Of a stretch of 12,225 nt of DNA, positions 575 through 11,517 are shown in pieces. The translations under genes and the position numbers were made by a program. Origin of the DNA: Hydrogenophaga sp. Lineage in GTDB: Bacteria; Pseudomonadota; Gammaproteobacteria; Burkholderiales; Burkholderiaceae_C. How positions within the stretch are numbered: the stretch's first letter is position 1; every line of letters starts with the position of its first letter. The DNA lies in assembly GCA_030684755.1 (NCBI GenBank), contig JAUXXN010000295.1:1-12225 (forward strand), in the 5' to 3' direction. The notes below the pieces were generated by a model. It worked only from the letters and a program-made list of their open reading frames with translations, made no database searches and was not told the origin of the DNA.

Positions 575-609
575 CTGTCAAAGAACGATGCAAGTCGTTG
601 ATTTGACAG
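575..609 (-). promoter_or_regulatory. Hairpin in the priA 5' leader
   Basis: CTGTCAAA (575-582) pairs with TTTGACAG (602-609). Inside it AACGA (584-588) pairs with TCGTT (595-599) around a six-base loop. The result is a two-part stem interrupted by a 1x2 internal loop, 26 bp before the priA ATG. Its right arm is also the beginning of repeat copy A; copy B keeps that arm but not the left one. It could be a leader structure or a protein-binding palindrome. Function is inferred only from position. Confidence 0.4.
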
Positions 610-634
610 GGGATCCAGACATATCCAGAAATTC

Positions 635-643
635 TGTGGATAA
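635..643 (-). promoter_or_regulatory. DnaA box (copy A, proximal)
   Basis: TGTGGATAA here is TTATCCACA on the minus strand, the exact high-affinity DnaA 9-mer. It is conserved with its flanks at 1036-1044 in copy B. Confidence 0.7.
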
Positions 644-684
644 CTTTGTTGATAGATTGTGTTGGAGCCTCTGAAGGCCTTACG

Positions 685-697
685 AATCAAGGGCTTG
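685..697 (+). promoter_or_regulatory. IHF-consensus site (copy A, first)
   Basis: AATCAAGGGCTTG fits WATCAANNNNTTR exactly. It is unchanged in copy B at 1086-1098. IHF bends DNA at many origins and promoters; its action here is inferred. Confidence 0.5.
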
Positions 698-740
698 CTT
701 AAACTGCCTGAATAACGGGCAAAAAAGCAAAGTCTATATA

Positions 741-753
741 AATCAATAGCTTA
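741..753 (+). promoter_or_regulatory. IHF-consensus site (copy A, second)
   Basis: AATCAATAGCTTA fits WATCAANNNNTTR exactly. The matching bases are kept in copy B (1142-1154) although three of the unconstrained positions changed, as selection for the site would predict. Confidence 0.5.
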
Positions 754-822
754 CACAACTTCATGACCATGGCCTGTTCGGTTGCTGGCGGAGCGAAAGC
801 GGCTGGGGCGGATCAAGAATTT

Positions 823-831
823 TGTGTATAA
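823..831 (-). promoter_or_regulatory. DnaA box (copy A, distal)
   Basis: TGTGTATAA is TTATACACA on the minus strand and fits TTATNCACA. It starts 188 bp from the proximal box. Copy B has its own TTATNCACA box at almost the same distance, 189 bp (1225-1233). The flanks resemble each other: TTTTGTGYATAAGTG followed by a TCAAGYCC block. Confidence 0.6.
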
Positions 832-1035
832 GTGTGACCCCTCAAGTCCGACCGTTGCGTTCTGTGCTACGGACCCACACGGTTGCGGGGCTTTGCACAT
901 GAAAACAGCGTTGCCGACTTGGGCCTGCTGTGCTTTGCGCTGTTTGGTATCCAACCCGGTCCATCTTCAGGTTGACGTGCAGAAAGCGCTGTAAGTCATT
1001 GATTTGACAGTGCATCCCGACATATCCAGAAAATC

Positions 1036-1044
1036 TGTGGATAA
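1036..1044 (-). promoter_or_regulatory. DnaA box (copy B, proximal)
   Basis: TGTGGATAA, which is TTATCCACA on the minus strand. Identical to the copy A box, with the following 12 bases (1045-1056) also identical. Confidence 0.7.
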
Positions 1045-1085
1045 CTTTGTTGATAGCTTGTGTTTGCACCCCGGGAGCCCTTACA

Positions 1086-1098
1086 AATCAAGGGCTTG
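1086..1098 (+). promoter_or_regulatory. IHF-consensus site (copy B, first)
   Basis: AATCAAGGGCTTG, an exact WATCAANNNNTTR match identical to copy A 685-697. Confidence 0.5.
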
Positions 1099-1141
1099 CT
1101 TAAACTGCCTTTTTTAAGGGCAAAAAAACAAATCCTATATA

Positions 1142-1154
1142 AATCAACCACTTA
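1142..1154 (+). promoter_or_regulatory. IHF-consensus site (copy B, second)
   Basis: AATCAACCACTTA, an exact WATCAANNNNTTR match. It is the counterpart of 741-753 with changed spacer bases. Confidence 0.5.
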
Positions 1155-1169
1155 GGGTGTTGCTCTGTC

Positions 1170-1192
1170 TTTCAGCAAAGCCTTTGCTGAAA
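1170..1192. repeat. Perfect 10-bp inverted repeat in the priA-hemE intergenic region
   Basis: TTTCAGCAAA (1170-1179) and TTTGCTGAAA (1183-1192) are perfect reverse complements around a GCC loop. No T run follows on either strand, so it is a poor intrinsic terminator. It lies between the A+T-rich part of copy B and its distal DnaA box, and has no counterpart in copy A. A binding palindrome, or a transcript end for hemE 147 bp upstream, are both possible. Confidence 0.5.
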
Positions 1193-1224
1193 CAGCTTGG
1201 CTGGGCGCCCCGCTGGCAAAGTTT

Positions 1225-1233
1225 TGTGCATAA
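1225..1233 (-). promoter_or_regulatory. DnaA box (copy B, distal)
   Basis: TGTGCATAA is TTATGCACA on the minus strand and fits TTATNCACA. It is the fourth such box in about 600 bp, all in the same orientation. Confidence 0.6.
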
Positions 1234-1300
1234 GTGGGGTTTGTCAAGCCCAGGATTTGCAAATTTTTGTGTTAAGAGTTGCTCGGTCGCTGTTGCAGGC

Positions 1301-1338: not shown

Positions 1339-2442
1339 TCAGCCCTGCGCGCGCAAGCGTTTGGAATGGTTGTGCACAGCATCCACTAGGGCCGACACAT
1401 GCTCGGGCGGTGTGAACTGGCTGATGCCATGGCCCAGGTTGAAAATATGCGTAGCACCAACGCCCGGGCCTTGGTGGGGCTTGCCAAAGCTCTCCAGCAC
1501 GGCGGCCACTTCGGCGTCAATCTGCGCGGGTTGGGCAAACAACACGTTGGGGTCGATGTTGCCCTGCAAGGCCTTGCCGTTCGGGCCTTCGCCCACCAAG
1601 GCGCGGGCTTTGGCCAGGTTCACCGTCCAGTCCAAGCCCAGCGCGTTGCAGTCCAAGTCCTTCATCTCGTCCAGCCACAGGCCGCCGCCCTTGGTGAACA
1701 CAATGCGCGGAATCGTCACGCCGTCTTTTTCGCGCTTCAGTTGCGCCAACACCCGCTTGGTGTAAGTCAAGCTGAACTGCTGGAACTTGCCGTCGGCCAG
1801 CACGCCGCCCCAGCTGTCAAACACCATCACCGCCTGCGCGCCGGCGTCAAGTTGCGCGTTCAGGTACGTGGCCACCGCGTCTGCGTTGATGGCCAAAATG
1901 CGGTGCATCAGGTCCGGGCGGCTGTACATCAGTGTTTTCACCGCGCGGTAGTCGTCCGAGCCGCCGCCCTCCACCATGTAGCAAGCCAGCGTCCAGGGGC
2001 TGCCCGAAAAACCAATCAGCGGCACCCGGCCATTCAAGGCCTTACGGATGCTGGTCACCGCGTCAAACACGTAGCGCAGCTTCTCCATATCGGGCACAGC
2101 CAGCGCGTCCACGTCGGCTTCGGTGCGCACCGTTTTCTGAAACTTCGGGCCTTCGCCCAGCGCAAAAGACAGGCCCAGGCCCATCGCGTCGGGCACCGTC
2201 AAAATGTCCGAAAACAAAATCGCCGCGTCCAGCGCGTAGCGCTCCAGCGGTTGCAGCGTCACCTCGGTGGCGTAGTCCACGTTGGTCGCTAGCCCCATGA
2301 AACTGCCCGCTTGTGCCCGCGTGGCGCGGTATTCGGGCAGGTATCGCCCGGCCTGGCGCATCAGCCACACGGGCGTGTAGTCGGTGGCCTGGCGCAAGCA
2401 AGCGCGCAAAAAGGTGTCGTTCTGCAAGGGGGCGAAGCTCAT
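1339..2442 (-). CDS. hemE: Uroporphyrinogen decarboxylase
   Basis: This cytoplasmic enzyme removes the four acetate carboxyls of uroporphyrinogen III to give coproporphyrinogen III in haem synthesis. It has 367 residues, near the usual length for the family. The first family signature, [15 protein letters not shown], is at 24-38. The catalytic Asp is D79 in ILFSDIL. The second signature, GFSGSPWTL, is at 144-152. The conserved C-terminal FNLGHG motif is at 334-339. The protein looks complete and functional. The start at 2442 gives the expected N-terminus [15 protein letters not shown], although no good ribosome binding site precedes it. hemE and priA share orientation but are separated by the DnaA/IHF-rich repeats. 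In alphaproteobacteria hemE is the classical neighbour of the chromosome origin, which makes the flanking DNA notable. Confidence 0.97.
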
Positions 2443-3197: not shown

Positions 3198-3455
3198 TTA
3201 CTCCAAAGGTTCAATGGGATTCAGAGGTTTTTTGGCCAAGGCCAGTTCCCAATCTGCCGCCAGTTCGTCGCGGTGCAGAGCCAGCCATTCGCGTACCAAG
3301 GACAAGGCGCGCCGTGGCAGATCGCCGGCATAAACCTTGCCATCCAGCGTAATCAGTGCCTCGTGTTCACCGTACACGGCATGAAAGTGCATGGGCGGGT
3401 GTTCACGCCAGTTCATGTAAATCACGATGCCAAAAAAGCGAGAAATTTCGGGCAT
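3198..3455 (-). CDS. DUF4160 family protein
   Basis: This 85-residue protein starts MPEISRFFGIVIYMNWREH, then PPMHFHAVYGEHEALI, the hallmark of DUF4160 with its HPPMHFH core. I chose the ATG at 3455 over one 60 bases upstream because AGGAGGT lies five bases before it and because the family begins with MPEISRF. That ribosome binding site is the strongest in the window and sits in the gap after the mod stop codon (3469). The gene looks intact while both flanking restriction-modification genes are destroyed. With the DUF2442 gene it forms a tight pair, possibly toxin-antitoxin-like. The His-rich HPPMHFH motif could bind metal or be catalytic, but this is inference. Confidence 0.83.
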   Translation of the reverse strand: MPEISRFFGIVIYMNWREHPPMHFHAVYGEHEALITLDGKVYAGDLPRRALSLVREWLALHRDELAADWELALAKKPLNPIEPLE

Positions 3456-3468
3456 GACGCACCTCCTT

Positions 3469-4124
3469 TTAAATGTCCAGGCTTCCCGCCAACTTTCCGC
3501 CAGCGCGGGCACCAAAGCGGTTCACCAAAAACGCCGGAATCGGCTCGAACGACACACGCGGATCGGTCATGCGCTGCGCCAGCAAGGCCGGTTGCCAGGA
3601 ATACACCACGGCCTGCCCAGCGCCATGGATGGCTGTTTGCAGTGCCTCCAGCATGGCTTCAGACACCTTGGGTAAATAGACCACCAAAGTGCGTTTGCCT
3701 TGTGCCGTTTGCATGGGCCATGCGGCCTGATAGGGTGACAGGGCCATGTCGTGAATCAGTTGCAGCGCTGTCCATATTTGCGCGTGCTGGATGCCGCGAA
3801 ACACCGTGGCCGCCGGAATGCGCCGACACCGCAGGTAGGCAAAACCACCGCCCAGCCCGGCGGTCGCTTCACCCTTTTTGGTGGTGTAGCCGGTCACCAC
3901 GCGCCGCACCCGTTCGGCGCACACGTCACGGCACAAATTTTTGTCGGGTGCGTCTGCTGTGGCCTCGGTGCTGGACACCAGAATGAAGCGGCGCCCATTT
4001 TGATCGACAGATCATGGTCAATTTCGTCACGCTCCCAGACCAAACCAAAATGGGGCCTGCGGTCCCGTTCGCGCAGCAGGCGCACGAGTTGTTCTTTGGA
4101 ATAGTCGTCGTAGTTGTCGGCCAT
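3469..4124 (-). pseudogene. Type III DNA methyltransferase (mod) gene with catalytic core deleted
   Basis: Two pieces of one adenine-specific methyltransferase lie in different frames. From the ATG at 4124 the N-terminus reads MADNYDDYSKEQLVRLL then FGLVWERDEIDHD, a typical Mod start. It leaves homology at about 4010. From there another frame reads NGRRFILVSSTEATADAPDK, CRDVCAERVRRV and GLGGGFAYLR through to the TAA at 3469-3471, a typical Mod C-terminus. The several hundred residues between are missing, including the DPPY and FxGxG methyltransferase motifs. The junction region contains GATC twice, 8 bp apart, so short-homology deletion is possible. No methyltransferase activity is expected. 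It is the first gene of the mod-DUF4160-DUF2442-res order. Confidence 0.8.
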
Positions 4125-4255: not shown

Positions 4256-5538
4256 CTATGCATTGGCCACGGTGGTGCCTGGCTCGTCGGTGGCGTTGTG
4301 TTTGAGCGGGAGGCCGTTGCCTGCATCTCTATCGGACAGCACCACCCGGTTGCGTCCTTGGTTTTTGGCTTGGTACAGGGCCGCATCTGCGGCCTGCATT
4401 TGGCTGTTGCGTTCGTCCCGGTTGGTGGGAATTTTCACCGCCACGCCCAGGCTGACCGTGACCACCTTGGCCACGGGTGAATGGTTGTGCTCCATACCCA
4501 TGGCCTCGATGTTGGCGCGTATGGCCTCGGCCATGGCCAGGGTCTGGAGCACGCTGGCCCCGGCATCACCACCACAAATTCTTCCCCGCCGTAGCGGGCC
4601 ACAAGTTCACCGGCCCGGCGCACCGTGGCCCGCAGCACTTCGCCCACCCGGCGCAGGCATTCGTCGCCTTGCTGGTGTCCGTAATGGTCGTTGTAGGCTT
4701 TGAAATGGTCCACGTCGAGCATGATGACCGCCAACGGCGATGTCTGGCGCAAGGCGCGTTGCCACTCTTCGGCCCACACCACATCGAAGCGGCGGCGGTT
4801 GGCCAGTTGGGTCAGACCATCGGTGACGCTCAGGATTTCCAGCTGGTGGTTCACCGCCTTCAGCGCCTGGGTGCGCTGTTGCACCTTGTTCTCCAGTTCG
4901 GTGTTGGACAAGGCCAGGGCCGCGCGCAGCCGCGACTGCTCGGTCAACTCGGCCTGCAAGCGTTTGGAGTAGCGCCAGCCGGTCCACAGCAACAGCAGCA
5001 CCGCAGCCAACCGCAGTGCCAGGGTGAGCAGGCGCATTTGCTTGTGCTCGCGGTCGGTGTTGGTCAGCTCAATGGTCAGTGCTCCCACCGCCGATTCGCT
5101 GTTGATTTCGTAGAGTTTGAGCGCCATGCCGTAGTCATTGGCCAACAGCGTTTGAAAGGCCTCGGACCAGCGGTCTTGCCGCATGAGTTCAAACACCGCC
5201 GTTTCCACCGCTCGCAAAGCCCGCTGCTCCTCGTTCAGGGCTTGCACATCGCTGGCCAGCACCATGGACTGGGTCTGATCCATCATTTCTCGCATGGTGG
5301 CCTCCAGCTCGGCCAGCAACGAGGGGTAGCTGGCCGCGCGCAGGCTGTTCTTTTCCAGCACGGCCGTGGCCACGGCATTGGTGAGCCCTTGGTTGAGTCG
5401 GAGCATGCGCTCCAACCCCAGCTGGATGCGCACAGACTGGTTGTGGCGCTGTTCGGCTTTGAAGTCGGTGTAAAAGCCGCCCGCAAAAGCCAGCAACAAC
5501 AAGCCGATGGCCACATGGATACTGCTTATAAAGCGCAT
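4256..5538 (-). pseudogene. Membrane diguanylate cyclase (GGDEF), split by a single-base frameshift
   Basis: The gene would encode an enzyme making cyclic di-GMP from two GTP. From the ATG at 5538: TM helix 6-23, a periplasmic sensor region of about 140 residues, TM helix about 169-188, a coiled-coil linker 193-236, then the GGDEF domain from SVTDGLTQLANRRRF. Metal-site residues are in LDVDHF (D275). The active-site motif is GGEEF (317-321). The inhibitory site has RAGE (308-311) where RxxD is usual. After VVVMPG the frame turns to Trp/Pro-rich nonsense. The proper continuation, ASVLQTLAMAEAIR to ALYQAKNQGRNRV, lies one frame over and ends at 4256. Adding one C to the run at 4558-4561 restores 427 residues with normal domain spacing. 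So it is either a recent mutation or a sequencing error. It lies 40 bp after the substrate-binding protein gene, in one operon. Confidence 0.88.
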
Positions 5539-5578: not shown

Positions 5579-6607
5579 TCAGTTGATGATCTTGTCGGCC
5601 TTGGCCAGCAGTTCGGCAGGCAGGGTGACGCCTTGGGCCCGCGCGGCCCGCAGGTTGATCAGCAGGCTGAACTTTTCGACCGGACCCCAGGGCACATCGC
5701 CAGGGGGAATGCCTTTAAGCACCAGCGCGGCTTTGCGACCTGCGGAGTAGCCCACCAGAAAGTAGTCGAGTCCGTAGGCCATGACCGCACCGCGCGCAAC
5801 GCTGTCGATGTCGCCAGCAAACAGGGCAATCTTGCGTTCGTCGCAAACGCGGGCGATGGCTTCGAGCGCGGCCACGGTGGTGTTGTCGGAGGTGATGGTG
5901 ATGGCTTGCACCCTCTCGGCCAGTTGGGCTGCCACCCGCCCCACCTCGGCGCTGTTGCCCACAGTGGCTTCGATCAGGGTCAGGCCCAAGCGCTTGGCGG
6001 TCTCCCGCATGGCCTGCACGTGGGTGAGCGAGTTGCTTTCTTGCGGGTTGTAAATGGTGCCCCACACCTTGGCTTGGGGCACGGCTTTGGCGTAGGTTTC
6101 CATTTGCAACTGCACGGGCCACAGGTCGCTCAGGCCGGTGACGTGGGTGCCGGTTTTCTGGCCAGGTGCGCTGTTCGGTGGCACCAGCCCGGCGCGCACC
6201 GGGTCGGTGACCGATGAGAACACCATGGGAATGCGGCTACCGGTGCGCATCACCGCCTGCGAGGTGGGCGTGGCAATGGTGTGGATCAGATCGACTTTGG
6301 CCTGCACCAGTTCGCGGGCAATGGCCTCGGCGCGGGCCATGTCGCCTTCGGCGTTGCGGCGCAGGTAGGTGACGTTCACGCCTTCTTTGAAACCGGCATT
6401 GGCCAGGCCCATTTCAAAGCCTTTTTCGTCGGCGTCCAGCGCCGCGTGCGAGACGATTTTGGTGACGCCAATGCGCAGCATTTTGCTGCTCTGCGCCTGC
6501 ACGGCGGTGGGCCAAGCCCAACCGAGGCTGGTTGCCAGACCGAGTCCGCACCAGTGGCGGCGCGAGACGCGGACTGGATCGTGCGTGTGTGGCGAATGTT
6601 GTGTCAT
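5579..6607 (-). CDS. ABC-type substrate-binding protein (ABC_sub_bind/TrpX-like), periplasmic
   Basis: The protein has 342 residues from the ATG at 6607, which has AGGG ten bases upstream. An ATG 42 bases earlier is in frame but poorly placed. A signal segment follows, with SRRHWCGLGLA (15-25), a Tat-like twin-arginine motif, and a likely cut after AVQA (about 38). The mature part reads IGVTKIVSHAALDADEKGF, IHTIATPTSQAV, VFSSVTDPVRAGLV and IYNPQESNS, characteristic of the ABC_sub_bind family, whose members bind small ligands such as tryptophan. No permease or ATPase gene is adjacent. The diguanylate cyclase gene follows at 40 bp in the same direction. I infer that it reports ligand to that membrane enzyme instead of feeding a transporter; a transporter elsewhere is the alternative. 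Confidence 0.88.
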   Translation of the reverse strand: MTQHSPHTHDPVRVSRRHWCGLGLATSLGWAWPTAVQAQSSKMLRIGVTKIVSHAALDADEKGFEMGLANAGFKEGVNVTYLRRNAEGDMARAEAIARELVQAKVDLIHTIATPTSQAVMRTGSRIPMVFSSVTDPVRAGLVPPNSAPGQKTGTHVTGLSDLWPVQLQMETYAKAVPQAKVWGTIYNPQESNSLTHVQAMRETAKRLGLTLIEATVGNSAEVGRVAAQLAERVQAITITSDNTTVAALEAIARVCDERKIALFAGDIDSVARGAVMAYGLDYFLVGYSAGRKAALVLKGIPPGDVPWGPVEKFSLLINLRAARAQGVTLPAELLAKADKIIN

Positions 6608-6649
6608 CAGATTACCCTGAAACAATGTGTAAGCACCATGTTGACACAA

Positions 6650-10602: not shown

Positions 10603-11517
10603 ATGAAAGACATGAGCGCTAAGTTTCACTTTTCGATCAAGTACGACGGACCGGCGCTGGCCAGTCATCAGATGGATGTTCGCGAGCTGGCGCCAGCCCT
10701 GATCGCGCTGTCTGAACTGCTTGAGCACGCCAACAAAGCCGCTTACCCCGACGCAAACGAAGTGCGCGTCAACGTCCAGGGAAACTTCAAGGGCGGTTCG
10801 TTTGGGGTTGATCTCATTGCCGTGCAAACGGTGGCCCAACAAATCGTCAGCCTTCTGAATGGTGACGATGCTACCGCTGCATCCAATCTCCTAGGTATCT
10901 TGGGTGGTTTGGGCTTGATTGGCGGCGGCGGTGTGATTGGCCTTATCAAATGGCTTCGTGGGCGCAAGCCCAGCACCATCCGAACAGTAGGAGGCAAGGT
11001 CGTTTTTGAGCTGCTTGACGCAGAGCAAAAAGAAACCTTCGAAGTGGATCTGATTGCTGGCAAGCTGTATCAAACAAGAGTGGTGCGCCAGACGCTTGCC
11101 AGGGTGGTAAAGCCCCTGGAGCGCGAAGGCGTTGATGTCTTTGCCTGTGGCAAAGACGGCACTACCCAGTCGGTAGTCACCAGCGATGAGCGTGTATGGT
11201 TTGACATGGCCGCCAGTGAAGCCGACGTTGTGTCCAACACCGTTCGTCAGCATGTCCTACTTCAAATCGAGTCGGCGGTTTTCAAAGACGACAACAAATG
11301 GCGATTTCACGACGGCTCGAATGCATTTTTTGCCGAGATCGCGGATCGCGCATTTGTTGATCGAATCAATGCCGGTGATGAGCGCTTTGGCAAGGGCGAT
11401 GTACTGATTGCGGACTTGAGAATTATTCAGAGCGTTACAGACAGCGGGCTCAAACAAGAGTACTTGATTGAAAAGGTCCACGCACATCGCGACCCGTTGC
11501 AGCAAAAGCTGACCTAG
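10603..11517 (+). CDS. Accessory protein with central glycine-rich hydrophobic segment, unknown function
   Basis: This 304-residue protein has AGGGA about eight bases before the ATG. The N-terminal part (1-90) reads FHFSIKYDGPALASHQMDVRELAPALIALSELL then VRVNVQGNFKGGSFGVDLI, resembling proteins I associate with prophages and accessory islands but cannot name. Residues 95-117 (LLGILGGLGLIGGGGVIGLIKW) are strongly hydrophobic and glycine-rich, bounded by charged KWLRGRKP, as in membrane-inserting hairpins. The rest is soluble-looking, with a beta-rich stretch RTVGGKVVFELLDAEQKETF and a C-terminal half without recognised motifs. Base composition is less GC-rich than the flanks, consistent with transfer. 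With the preceding membrane protein it forms a two-gene module between unrelated chromosomal genes. Confidence 0.75.
   Translation: MKDMSAKFHFSIKYDGPALASHQMDVRELAPALIALSELLEHANKAAYPDANEVRVNVQGNFKGGSFGVDLIAVQTVAQQIVSLLNGDDATAASNLLGILGGLGLIGGGGVIGLIKWLRGRKPSTIRTVGGKVVFELLDAEQKETFEVDLIAGKLYQTRVVRQTLARVVKPLEREGVDVFACGKDGTTQSVVTSDERVWFDMAASEADVVSNTVRQHVLLQIESAVFKDDNKWRFHDGSNAFFAEIADRAFVDRINAGDERFGKGDVLIADLRIIQSVTDSGLKQEYLIEKVHAHRDPLQQKLT

Follow-up and report, generated by a model that had tools for sequence, protein, structure and literature searches.

A duplicated DnaA-box and IHF-site element upstream of priA in Hydrogenophaga resembles the DnaA-reactivating sequences of Escherichia coli

The spacer between priA and hemE in a Hydrogenophaga sp. 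contig carries a duplicated set of DnaA boxes and IHF sites, and the question is whether this locus is a chromosome origin, as a preliminary description of the sequence proposed, or another kind of DnaA-binding element. The window analyzed here is the whole 12,225-bp contig, which belongs to a 689-contig draft (82.6% complete, 3.62 Mb). Its first gene, cut by the contig end, matched models of primosomal protein N' (best 78 bits), and a 790-bp spacer separates this minus-strand priA from hemE on the same strand (Table 1). The remainder of the window encodes a small protein like the DhiT toxin family (3198-3515, minus strand; 63.7 bits, under its 100-bit cut-off), a GGDEF-domain protein (4435-5538, minus strand; 116.6 bits), a TrpX-like substrate-binding protein (5579-6649, minus strand; 213 bits, under the cut-off of 390) and a member of the LAPAL-motif putative phage structural protein family (10603-11517, plus strand; 280.6 bits, cut-off 60).

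The two direct repeats, located at 592-753 and 993-1154, are 401 bp apart and identical at 137 of 162 positions (84.6%), in agreement with the roughly 85% first reported; a longer comparison over 198 bp gives 157/198 (79.3%). Four TTATNCACA boxes, all on the minus strand, are the sole ones in the window (the whole draft contains 36), and the two boxes of each unit are spaced by 188 and 189 bp, respectively, as had been described. First-order Markov resamples of the window contained a mean of 0.109 boxes each, and none of 1000 placed four or more within 600 bp, which bears out the earlier judgment that the cluster is hard to attribute to chance. Both units read CTATCAACA-aag-TTATCCACA-5 bp-TCTGGATAT, in which the weak box CTATCAACA, with two mismatches, starts 12 bp from the strong box; this pair had been recognized, and the inverted third box had been missed. 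Perfect matches to the IHF consensus WATCAANNNNTTR are indeed present in each copy, at three per unit rather than the two originally counted. The sites are better conserved between copies (61/66) than the spacers (76/97), again as claimed. BLAST found no further copy of the repeat in the draft, and no known RNA of Rfam was matched at E up to 1 in 500-1400.

Table 1. Features of the priA-hemE region of the window. Offsets place box II at 0.
Feature	Position	Strand	Basis or remark
priA, N-terminal part, cut by contig end	1..548	-	start taken as ATG at 548
Unit 1, priA-proximal, DARS-like element	590..845	-	profile R1, 135.7 bits; sequence itself in training set
Unit 1 IHF3 consensus site, offset +40	591..603	-	consensus match
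Unit 1 box I, ATATCCAGA, inverted, 2 mismatches, offset +14	621..629	+	read from sequence; offset profile
Unit 1 box II, TTATCCACA, offset 0	635..643	-	box search
Unit 1 box III, CTATCAACA, 2 mismatches, offset -12	647..655	-	read from sequence; offset profile, 86 anchors
Unit 1 IHF2 consensus site, offset -54	685..697	+	inside AGCCCTTGATT palindrome region; kept less often in relatives
Unit 1 IHF1 consensus site, offset -110	741..753	+	consensus match
Unit 1 far box A, TTATACACA, offset -188	823..831	-	box search
Unit 2, hemE-proximal, DARS-like element	990..1247	-	profile R1, 139 bits; sequence itself in training set
Unit 2 IHF3 consensus site, offset +40	992..1004	-	consensus match
Unit 2 box I, ATATCCAGA, inverted, 2 mismatches	1022..1030	+	read from sequence; offset profile
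Unit 2 box II, TTATCCACA	1036..1044	-	box search
Unit 2 box III, CTATCAACA	1048..1056	-	read from sequence; offset profile
Unit 2 IHF2 consensus site, offset -54	1086..1098	+	consensus match
Unit 2 IHF1 consensus site, offset -110	1142..1154	+	consensus match
Unit 2 far box A, TTATGCACA, offset -189	1225..1233	-	box search
hemE, uroporphyrinogen decarboxylase	1339..2442	-	TIGR01464, 404.5 bits (cut-off 302.95); upstream neighbor, probably incidental

Conservation was assessed in 80 hemE loci from named genomes, mostly of genera labelled Comamonadaceae. In the 1.5 kb downstream of hemE, 68 loci have two or more consensus boxes, 2 have one and 10 have none; boxes are absent near hemE in L034 and L043, yet each has two units about 1.6 kb downstream. 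The gene priA is downstream of hemE in 73 of the 80 loci, always on the same strand, and at least one core was found in 71 of these 73 (one in 57, two in 13 and four in one), so that the conservation the preliminary description had asked for in related spacers is present. When the layout is searched strictly, as a far box, 160-190 bp and then TATCAACAAAGTTATNCACA, 92 of 299 family genomes match (44 of 126 genera, the genome of the window counted), and the backward control of this pattern matched none of the 299.

The layout is rigid among 86 units, namely those of the window and of 70 loci. An exact far box is found at -185 to -189 in 66 units, at -197 to -199 in 8, at -178 to -180 in 4 and at -165 in one; six of the seven units without one have a box with a single mismatch. 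IHF1 falls at -109 to -111 in 82 units (exact in 67 of the 86) and IHF3 at +39 to +41 in 70, and IHF2 is present within one mismatch in 39. The jumps of about 10 bp in far-box position arise between the far box and IHF1, whose own offset stays constant, which suggests helical phasing. In many related units the spacer between box A and IHF1, the one length-variable stretch of the unit, harbors a recurrent GCTANNAAANNNATAGC palindrome, which we take to be a dispersed Comamonadaceae repeat.

A scan over the 86 anchors returned -12 as the best direct offset, and -11, which overlaps box III, followed by +14 as the best inverted ones. Boxes II and III are kept nearly always in relatives, and box I is within two mismatches in 19 anchors. 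With the broad motif HHMTHCWVH, as it stands in the accessible text of PMC12371093, 22 anchors fit at +14, and no other inverted offset that was tried has more than 5; these counts indicate that box I sits where predicted but is weak. The place of box III fits the same motif in only 2 of the 86.

Beyond the family, the core pattern TNNACANNNYTATNCACANNNNNNNTGRAT is found in 180 of 370 class genomes and 140 of 272 genera, and in 0 of the 370 as a backward control. Among 17 scanned core-pattern loci, priA is a neighbor in six, and others include lptG, hemW, proS, lon and ppnN. Proximity to priA was measured in 80 of 99 genomes among the matches listed, of which 78 have priA, with 120 core sites in total. 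In 35 of these 80 genomes, among the matches listed, a core lies 504-976 bp upstream of the start of the priA domain, and all 35 are on the priA strand, in 20 families by the labels of the tool. Taking one locus per family, a far box with at most one mismatch is present at -186 to -201 in 18 of 20, and IHF1 with at most two mismatches at -108 to -111 in 19 of 20 (exact in 7). The place of a DARS-type element (DnaA-reactivating sequence) upstream of priA is probably ancient. E. coli priA has no such element in the approximately 290 bp upstream by pattern, nor in 6.5 kb there by the profile described next.

The profile, R1, models sequence alone; it is 260 positions long and was built from 39 sequences: 18 gammaproteobacterial loci (from 20, leaving out the truncated L219 and L229, which has no far box), the two window units and 19 of 20 loci picked from the 80 hemE loci (L015, which had been aligned by a wrong box, left out), with no E. 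coli sequence. At E up to 0.01, 352 of 370 class genomes have an R1 match (261 of 272 genera), a count in which at least 19 genomes supplied training sequence and the weakest matches, with E near 0.01, may be partial. In a further set of 38 family genera plus Comamonas testosteroni, all 39 genomes match, with a best E per genome of at most 2.7e-8. The Hydrogenophaga draft has four matches, two of which are the window units. We observed priA in 42 of 60 fetched R1 loci, but the training copies of R1 were themselves priA-linked; copies also adjoin rapA, metG, xseA and a putA-like gene. Outside the gammaproteobacterial training genomes, 51 R1 loci (overlap with the named training records is possible) include 47 with the double box, of which 42 have IHF1 at -112 to -108, 44 a far box and 32 a box I with at most two mismatches, although these layout counts are not free of selection because R1 chose the loci.

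Five hemE loci (L049, L054, L057, L076 and L077) have a long downstream flank with no priA match and give no profile match, which disfavors a hemE-linked element. The element is absent from L039 and L055, where the hemE-priA gap is 27-37 bp; L022 and L046 are cut by contig ends, L046 with two profile matches. The adjacency to hemE therefore looks incidental, and of the DnaA-controlled hub for priA and heme genes envisaged earlier, the association with priA holds and that with hemE does not appear to.

R1 was run on 500 kb of E. coli chosen to hold oriC, datA, DARS1 and DARS2. Only DARS1 (30.0 bits, over 159 model positions) and DARS2 (29.6 and 21.4 bits) exceed 12 bits, followed by datA at 12.0, the oriC flank at 10.6 and two matches under 4. 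In MG1655 the boxes of DARS1 are at 2108+, 2122- and 2134- (L178) and those of DARS2 at 1136+, 1150- and 1162- (L179), such that boxes III, II and I lie at 0, +12 and +26, with I inverted, identically in DARS1, DARS2 and both window units. A review, in the portion available, describes the same core arrangement in words (PMC5742627). Both window units thus have the three boxes of a DARS core at its fixed spacing with box I opposed, boxes I and III being weak with two mismatches each.

The resemblance to DARS2 extends past the core, as an IHF region lies on the box III side (IHF1 at -110 in both units, a site predicted by sequence match) and more DnaA boxes follow beyond it. In the R1-DARS2 alignment, the IHF1 of the model is placed over the IHF region of DARS2, with a gap of 11 positions. 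The two IHF sites that we located in DARS2 are 3 bp apart, the separation given for IBS1-2 in the sections available of PMC4245941. The second DARS2 match (L179 1440-1606), 316 bp from the core and reminiscent of tandem units, contains a double box bound by DnaA in ChIP-seq according to the accessible part of PMC11317965. By sequence, DARS2 may itself be a worn tandem pair like that of the window. There are also differences: the DARS2 IHF sites are at -99/-83 instead of -110, its -197 box is oriented opposite to the far box of the window, and it is situated upstream of rppH/mutH (the rppH-mutH locus) rather than priA. DARS2 is Fis-dependent, and the Fis sites FBS2-3 are essential. The distance of the DARS2 IHF sites from the core is phase-sensitive, and shifting them by 10 bp leaves partial to moderate activity, as stated in the text available of PMC4245941. 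DARS1 (bioD-uvrB) likewise has another gene neighbor than the window element, and it works without IHF according to the portion available of the review (PMC5742627).

We favor the interpretation, at a probability of roughly 0.6, that the repeat is a tandem DARS-type pair upstream of priA that would recharge ADP-DnaA and probably also affect priA expression. In this scheme the double box (III and II) would be the loading place for DnaA, and IHF bound at IHF1 would bend the unit of about 190 bp so that DnaA at the far box meets DnaA at the core. ADP-DnaA molecules placed head-to-head at boxes I and II would then expel ADP, and the apo-DnaA could leave and bind ATP, so that the locus would recharge the initiator between rounds. 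Head-to-head contact of DnaA is held to expel ADP in E. coli (PMC5742627, in the part available). Because the element is oriented towards priA from about 100 bp upstream, occupancy by DnaA and IHF probably alters priA transcription too. Several observations speak against a DARS: box I of the Comamonadaceae units is weak (19 of 86 by mismatches, 22 of 86 by the broad motif), box III rarely fits that motif, the C. testosteroni unit has no recognizable box I (8 mismatches, the R1 match ending before its place), the far box is reversed relative to DARS2, and the box-IHF-box order is shared with datA.

In favor of such recharging, Hda is encoded in Limnohabitans parvus (L089); DnaA-like matches in L088 and L090, at first Hda candidates, were identified as IstB. 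In E. coli, Hda makes ADP-DnaA.

The shared box-IHF-box order gives a datA-like site, at which IHF-dependent hydrolysis of DnaA-ATP or titration of DnaA would lower the active initiator, its claim, although we consider it unlikely. In datA, a box(+)-IHF(-)-box(+) array has 65 and 97 bp between starts, and in each unit box A(+)-IHF1(-)-box II(+) has the same order and orientation with 78 and 110 bp. The datA locus too begins with a weak-strong double box; in E. coli the first box is often weak (PMC11317965, accessible part). The distance from dnaA is 0.25-0.86 Mb in 22 of 27 genomes with both on one contig, some sizes being rounded, and an origin-proximal place suits E. coli datA as portrayed in the text available of PMC5010248. 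However, the R1 score on datA covers the double box only, as against about 30 bits on DARS1 and DARS2, and the inverted box at +14 is DARS geometry; datA has no such core, its inverted box being at +12 of another box. datA is therefore not kin to the element by sequence, and of the earlier suggestion of a datA-like locus, what holds is a predicted DnaA/IHF element other than oriC, for which the best E. coli match is DARS, a class that the suggestion did not name.

Transcriptional control alone, with DnaA and IHF acting on priA and the element taking no part in the DnaA cycle, is in our estimate improbable. The median distance from the start of core II to the estimated first codon of priA is 104 bp in the 71 loci, the priA-linked cores are uniformly co-oriented among the matches listed, and DnaA binding upstream of genes for repair and replication is known from E. 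coli (PMC11317965, in the part available). Nevertheless, a rigid unit of 190 bp that includes a far box and an IHF site is more than a simple operator, and the E. coli matches of the profile, DARS1 and DARS2, are not at priA. The copies beside rapA, metG, xseA, lptG, hemW and other genes likewise make the element more than a priA operator.

The proposal that the element is the chromosome origin can now be set against GC skew, and it is highly improbable. In its favor, no group in the draft has more consensus boxes than this locus (4 within about 600 bp) and a cluster on contig 172, the element is the sole close box pair on the 4.39-Mb G106 chromosome, and GC skew in Hydrogenophaga is weak. In alphaproteobacteria oriC is beside hemE, and the neighbor and the DnaA boxes are a likeness to it; the element here differs in going with priA and lying away from the skew switch. 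The complete C. testosteroni genome (CP044131) has dnaA at 0.4 kb, and its copy of the element follows at 336 kb. We sampled 40 stretches of it, each of 20 kb but for one of 14 kb. Between 20 kb and 1.88 Mb they have positive skew, with the exception of -0.004 at 360 kb; those from 2.07 Mb onward, across the chromosome start to 20 kb, have negative skew, and the cumulative minimum, scanned from -20 to +40 kb, is at 17-18 kb. The switch is hence 14-19 kb from dnaA and about 320 kb from hemE-priA, where the stretch holding the element has a skew of +0.058. R1 scores at most 14.1 bits in the switch region. The C. testosteroni unit, having no box I, is an imperfect stand-in for the window genome.

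Two further genomes give weak and noisy skew. In G106, of the same genus (20 stretches), the values are -0.074 at 4.0 Mb, between -0.03 and -0.01 over the initial 60 kb and +0.053 at 100 kb, and near the element at 511 kb they range from about zero to +0.015. In G289 (17 stretches), the initial 40 kb has -0.03 to -0.04 and the element (622 kb) +0.04, but the value at 4.56 Mb is also positive, at +0.03. In both, the change from minus to plus occurs within about 100 kb of dnaA, and none of the sampled stretches places a minimum at the element. Thus, one genome clearly excludes the origin reading, and the two others are compatible with that but noisy. A tblastn search found no dnaA in 30 core-pattern loci (the window and G106 among them), and the same query recovered 27 of 27 known dnaA loci. 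The duplicated element is real and conserved and, on the evidence at hand, not the present origin; conservation of its boxes in related spacers marks it as constrained for something else. A chance cluster or a decayed functionless repeat, favored by nothing beyond the duplication itself, is rejected by the resamples, the fixed offsets and the spread of the strict layout with its empty backward control.

Candidate origin-like regions do score modestly with R1, at 19.5 bits at 14.5 kb in G113 and up to 18.6 bits on draft contig 172. In C. testosteroni (L091 14200-19000), the skew minimum lies in AT-rich DNA, where four TTATCCACA boxes flank dinG (14959-17124, 819 bits); the Comamonas oriC likely adjoins dinG. 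The second four-box cluster of the draft (contig 172, 3199-3835; L320 2190-2915) is flanked by a YlqF GTPase gene on one side and a fabG-like gene on the other and includes several partial profile matches of 12-19 bits. On draft contig 94 (L319 345-381), head-to-head perfect DnaA boxes are 28 bp apart beside a menA-like gene, and the box pair 14.5 kb from dnaA in G113 has the same spacing.

The DARS2 core has been called specific to gammaproteobacteria related to E. coli (PMC4245941, in the sections available), and the review, in its accessible part, widens DARS to beta- or gammaproteobacteria close to E. coli (PMC5742627). DnaA recharging beyond the relatives of E. coli is little explored in the portions of the literature covered. 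No DARS beside priA or in Comamonadaceae is described there, weak evidence of novelty given the partial coverage. The element suggests that initiator recharging and replication restart meet at a common locus. It is possible, though doubtful, that a DARS2-like element upstream of priA is an ancestral DnaA-recharging site, near-universal in Gammaproteobacteria (as delimited by GTDB, with Burkholderiales), which would couple initiator reactivation to expression of the replication-restart helicase, with DARS1 and DARS2 as relocated members and with dosage tuned in some lineages by tandem duplication. The R1 matches across the class provide loci for deletion and assay, and DnaA-box clusters beside hemE or priA should not be annotated as origins.

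The second unit of the window would be a lineage-specific duplication, which should raise dosage. Two copies are likewise present in the closest relative (L003), at a distance of 480 bp compared with 401 bp here, and the other loci labelled Hydrogenophaga have one. Acidovorax-like genomes carry pairs that are mostly 325 or 335 bp apart; because pairs occur in separate lineages at differing spacings, the duplication probably arose more than once.
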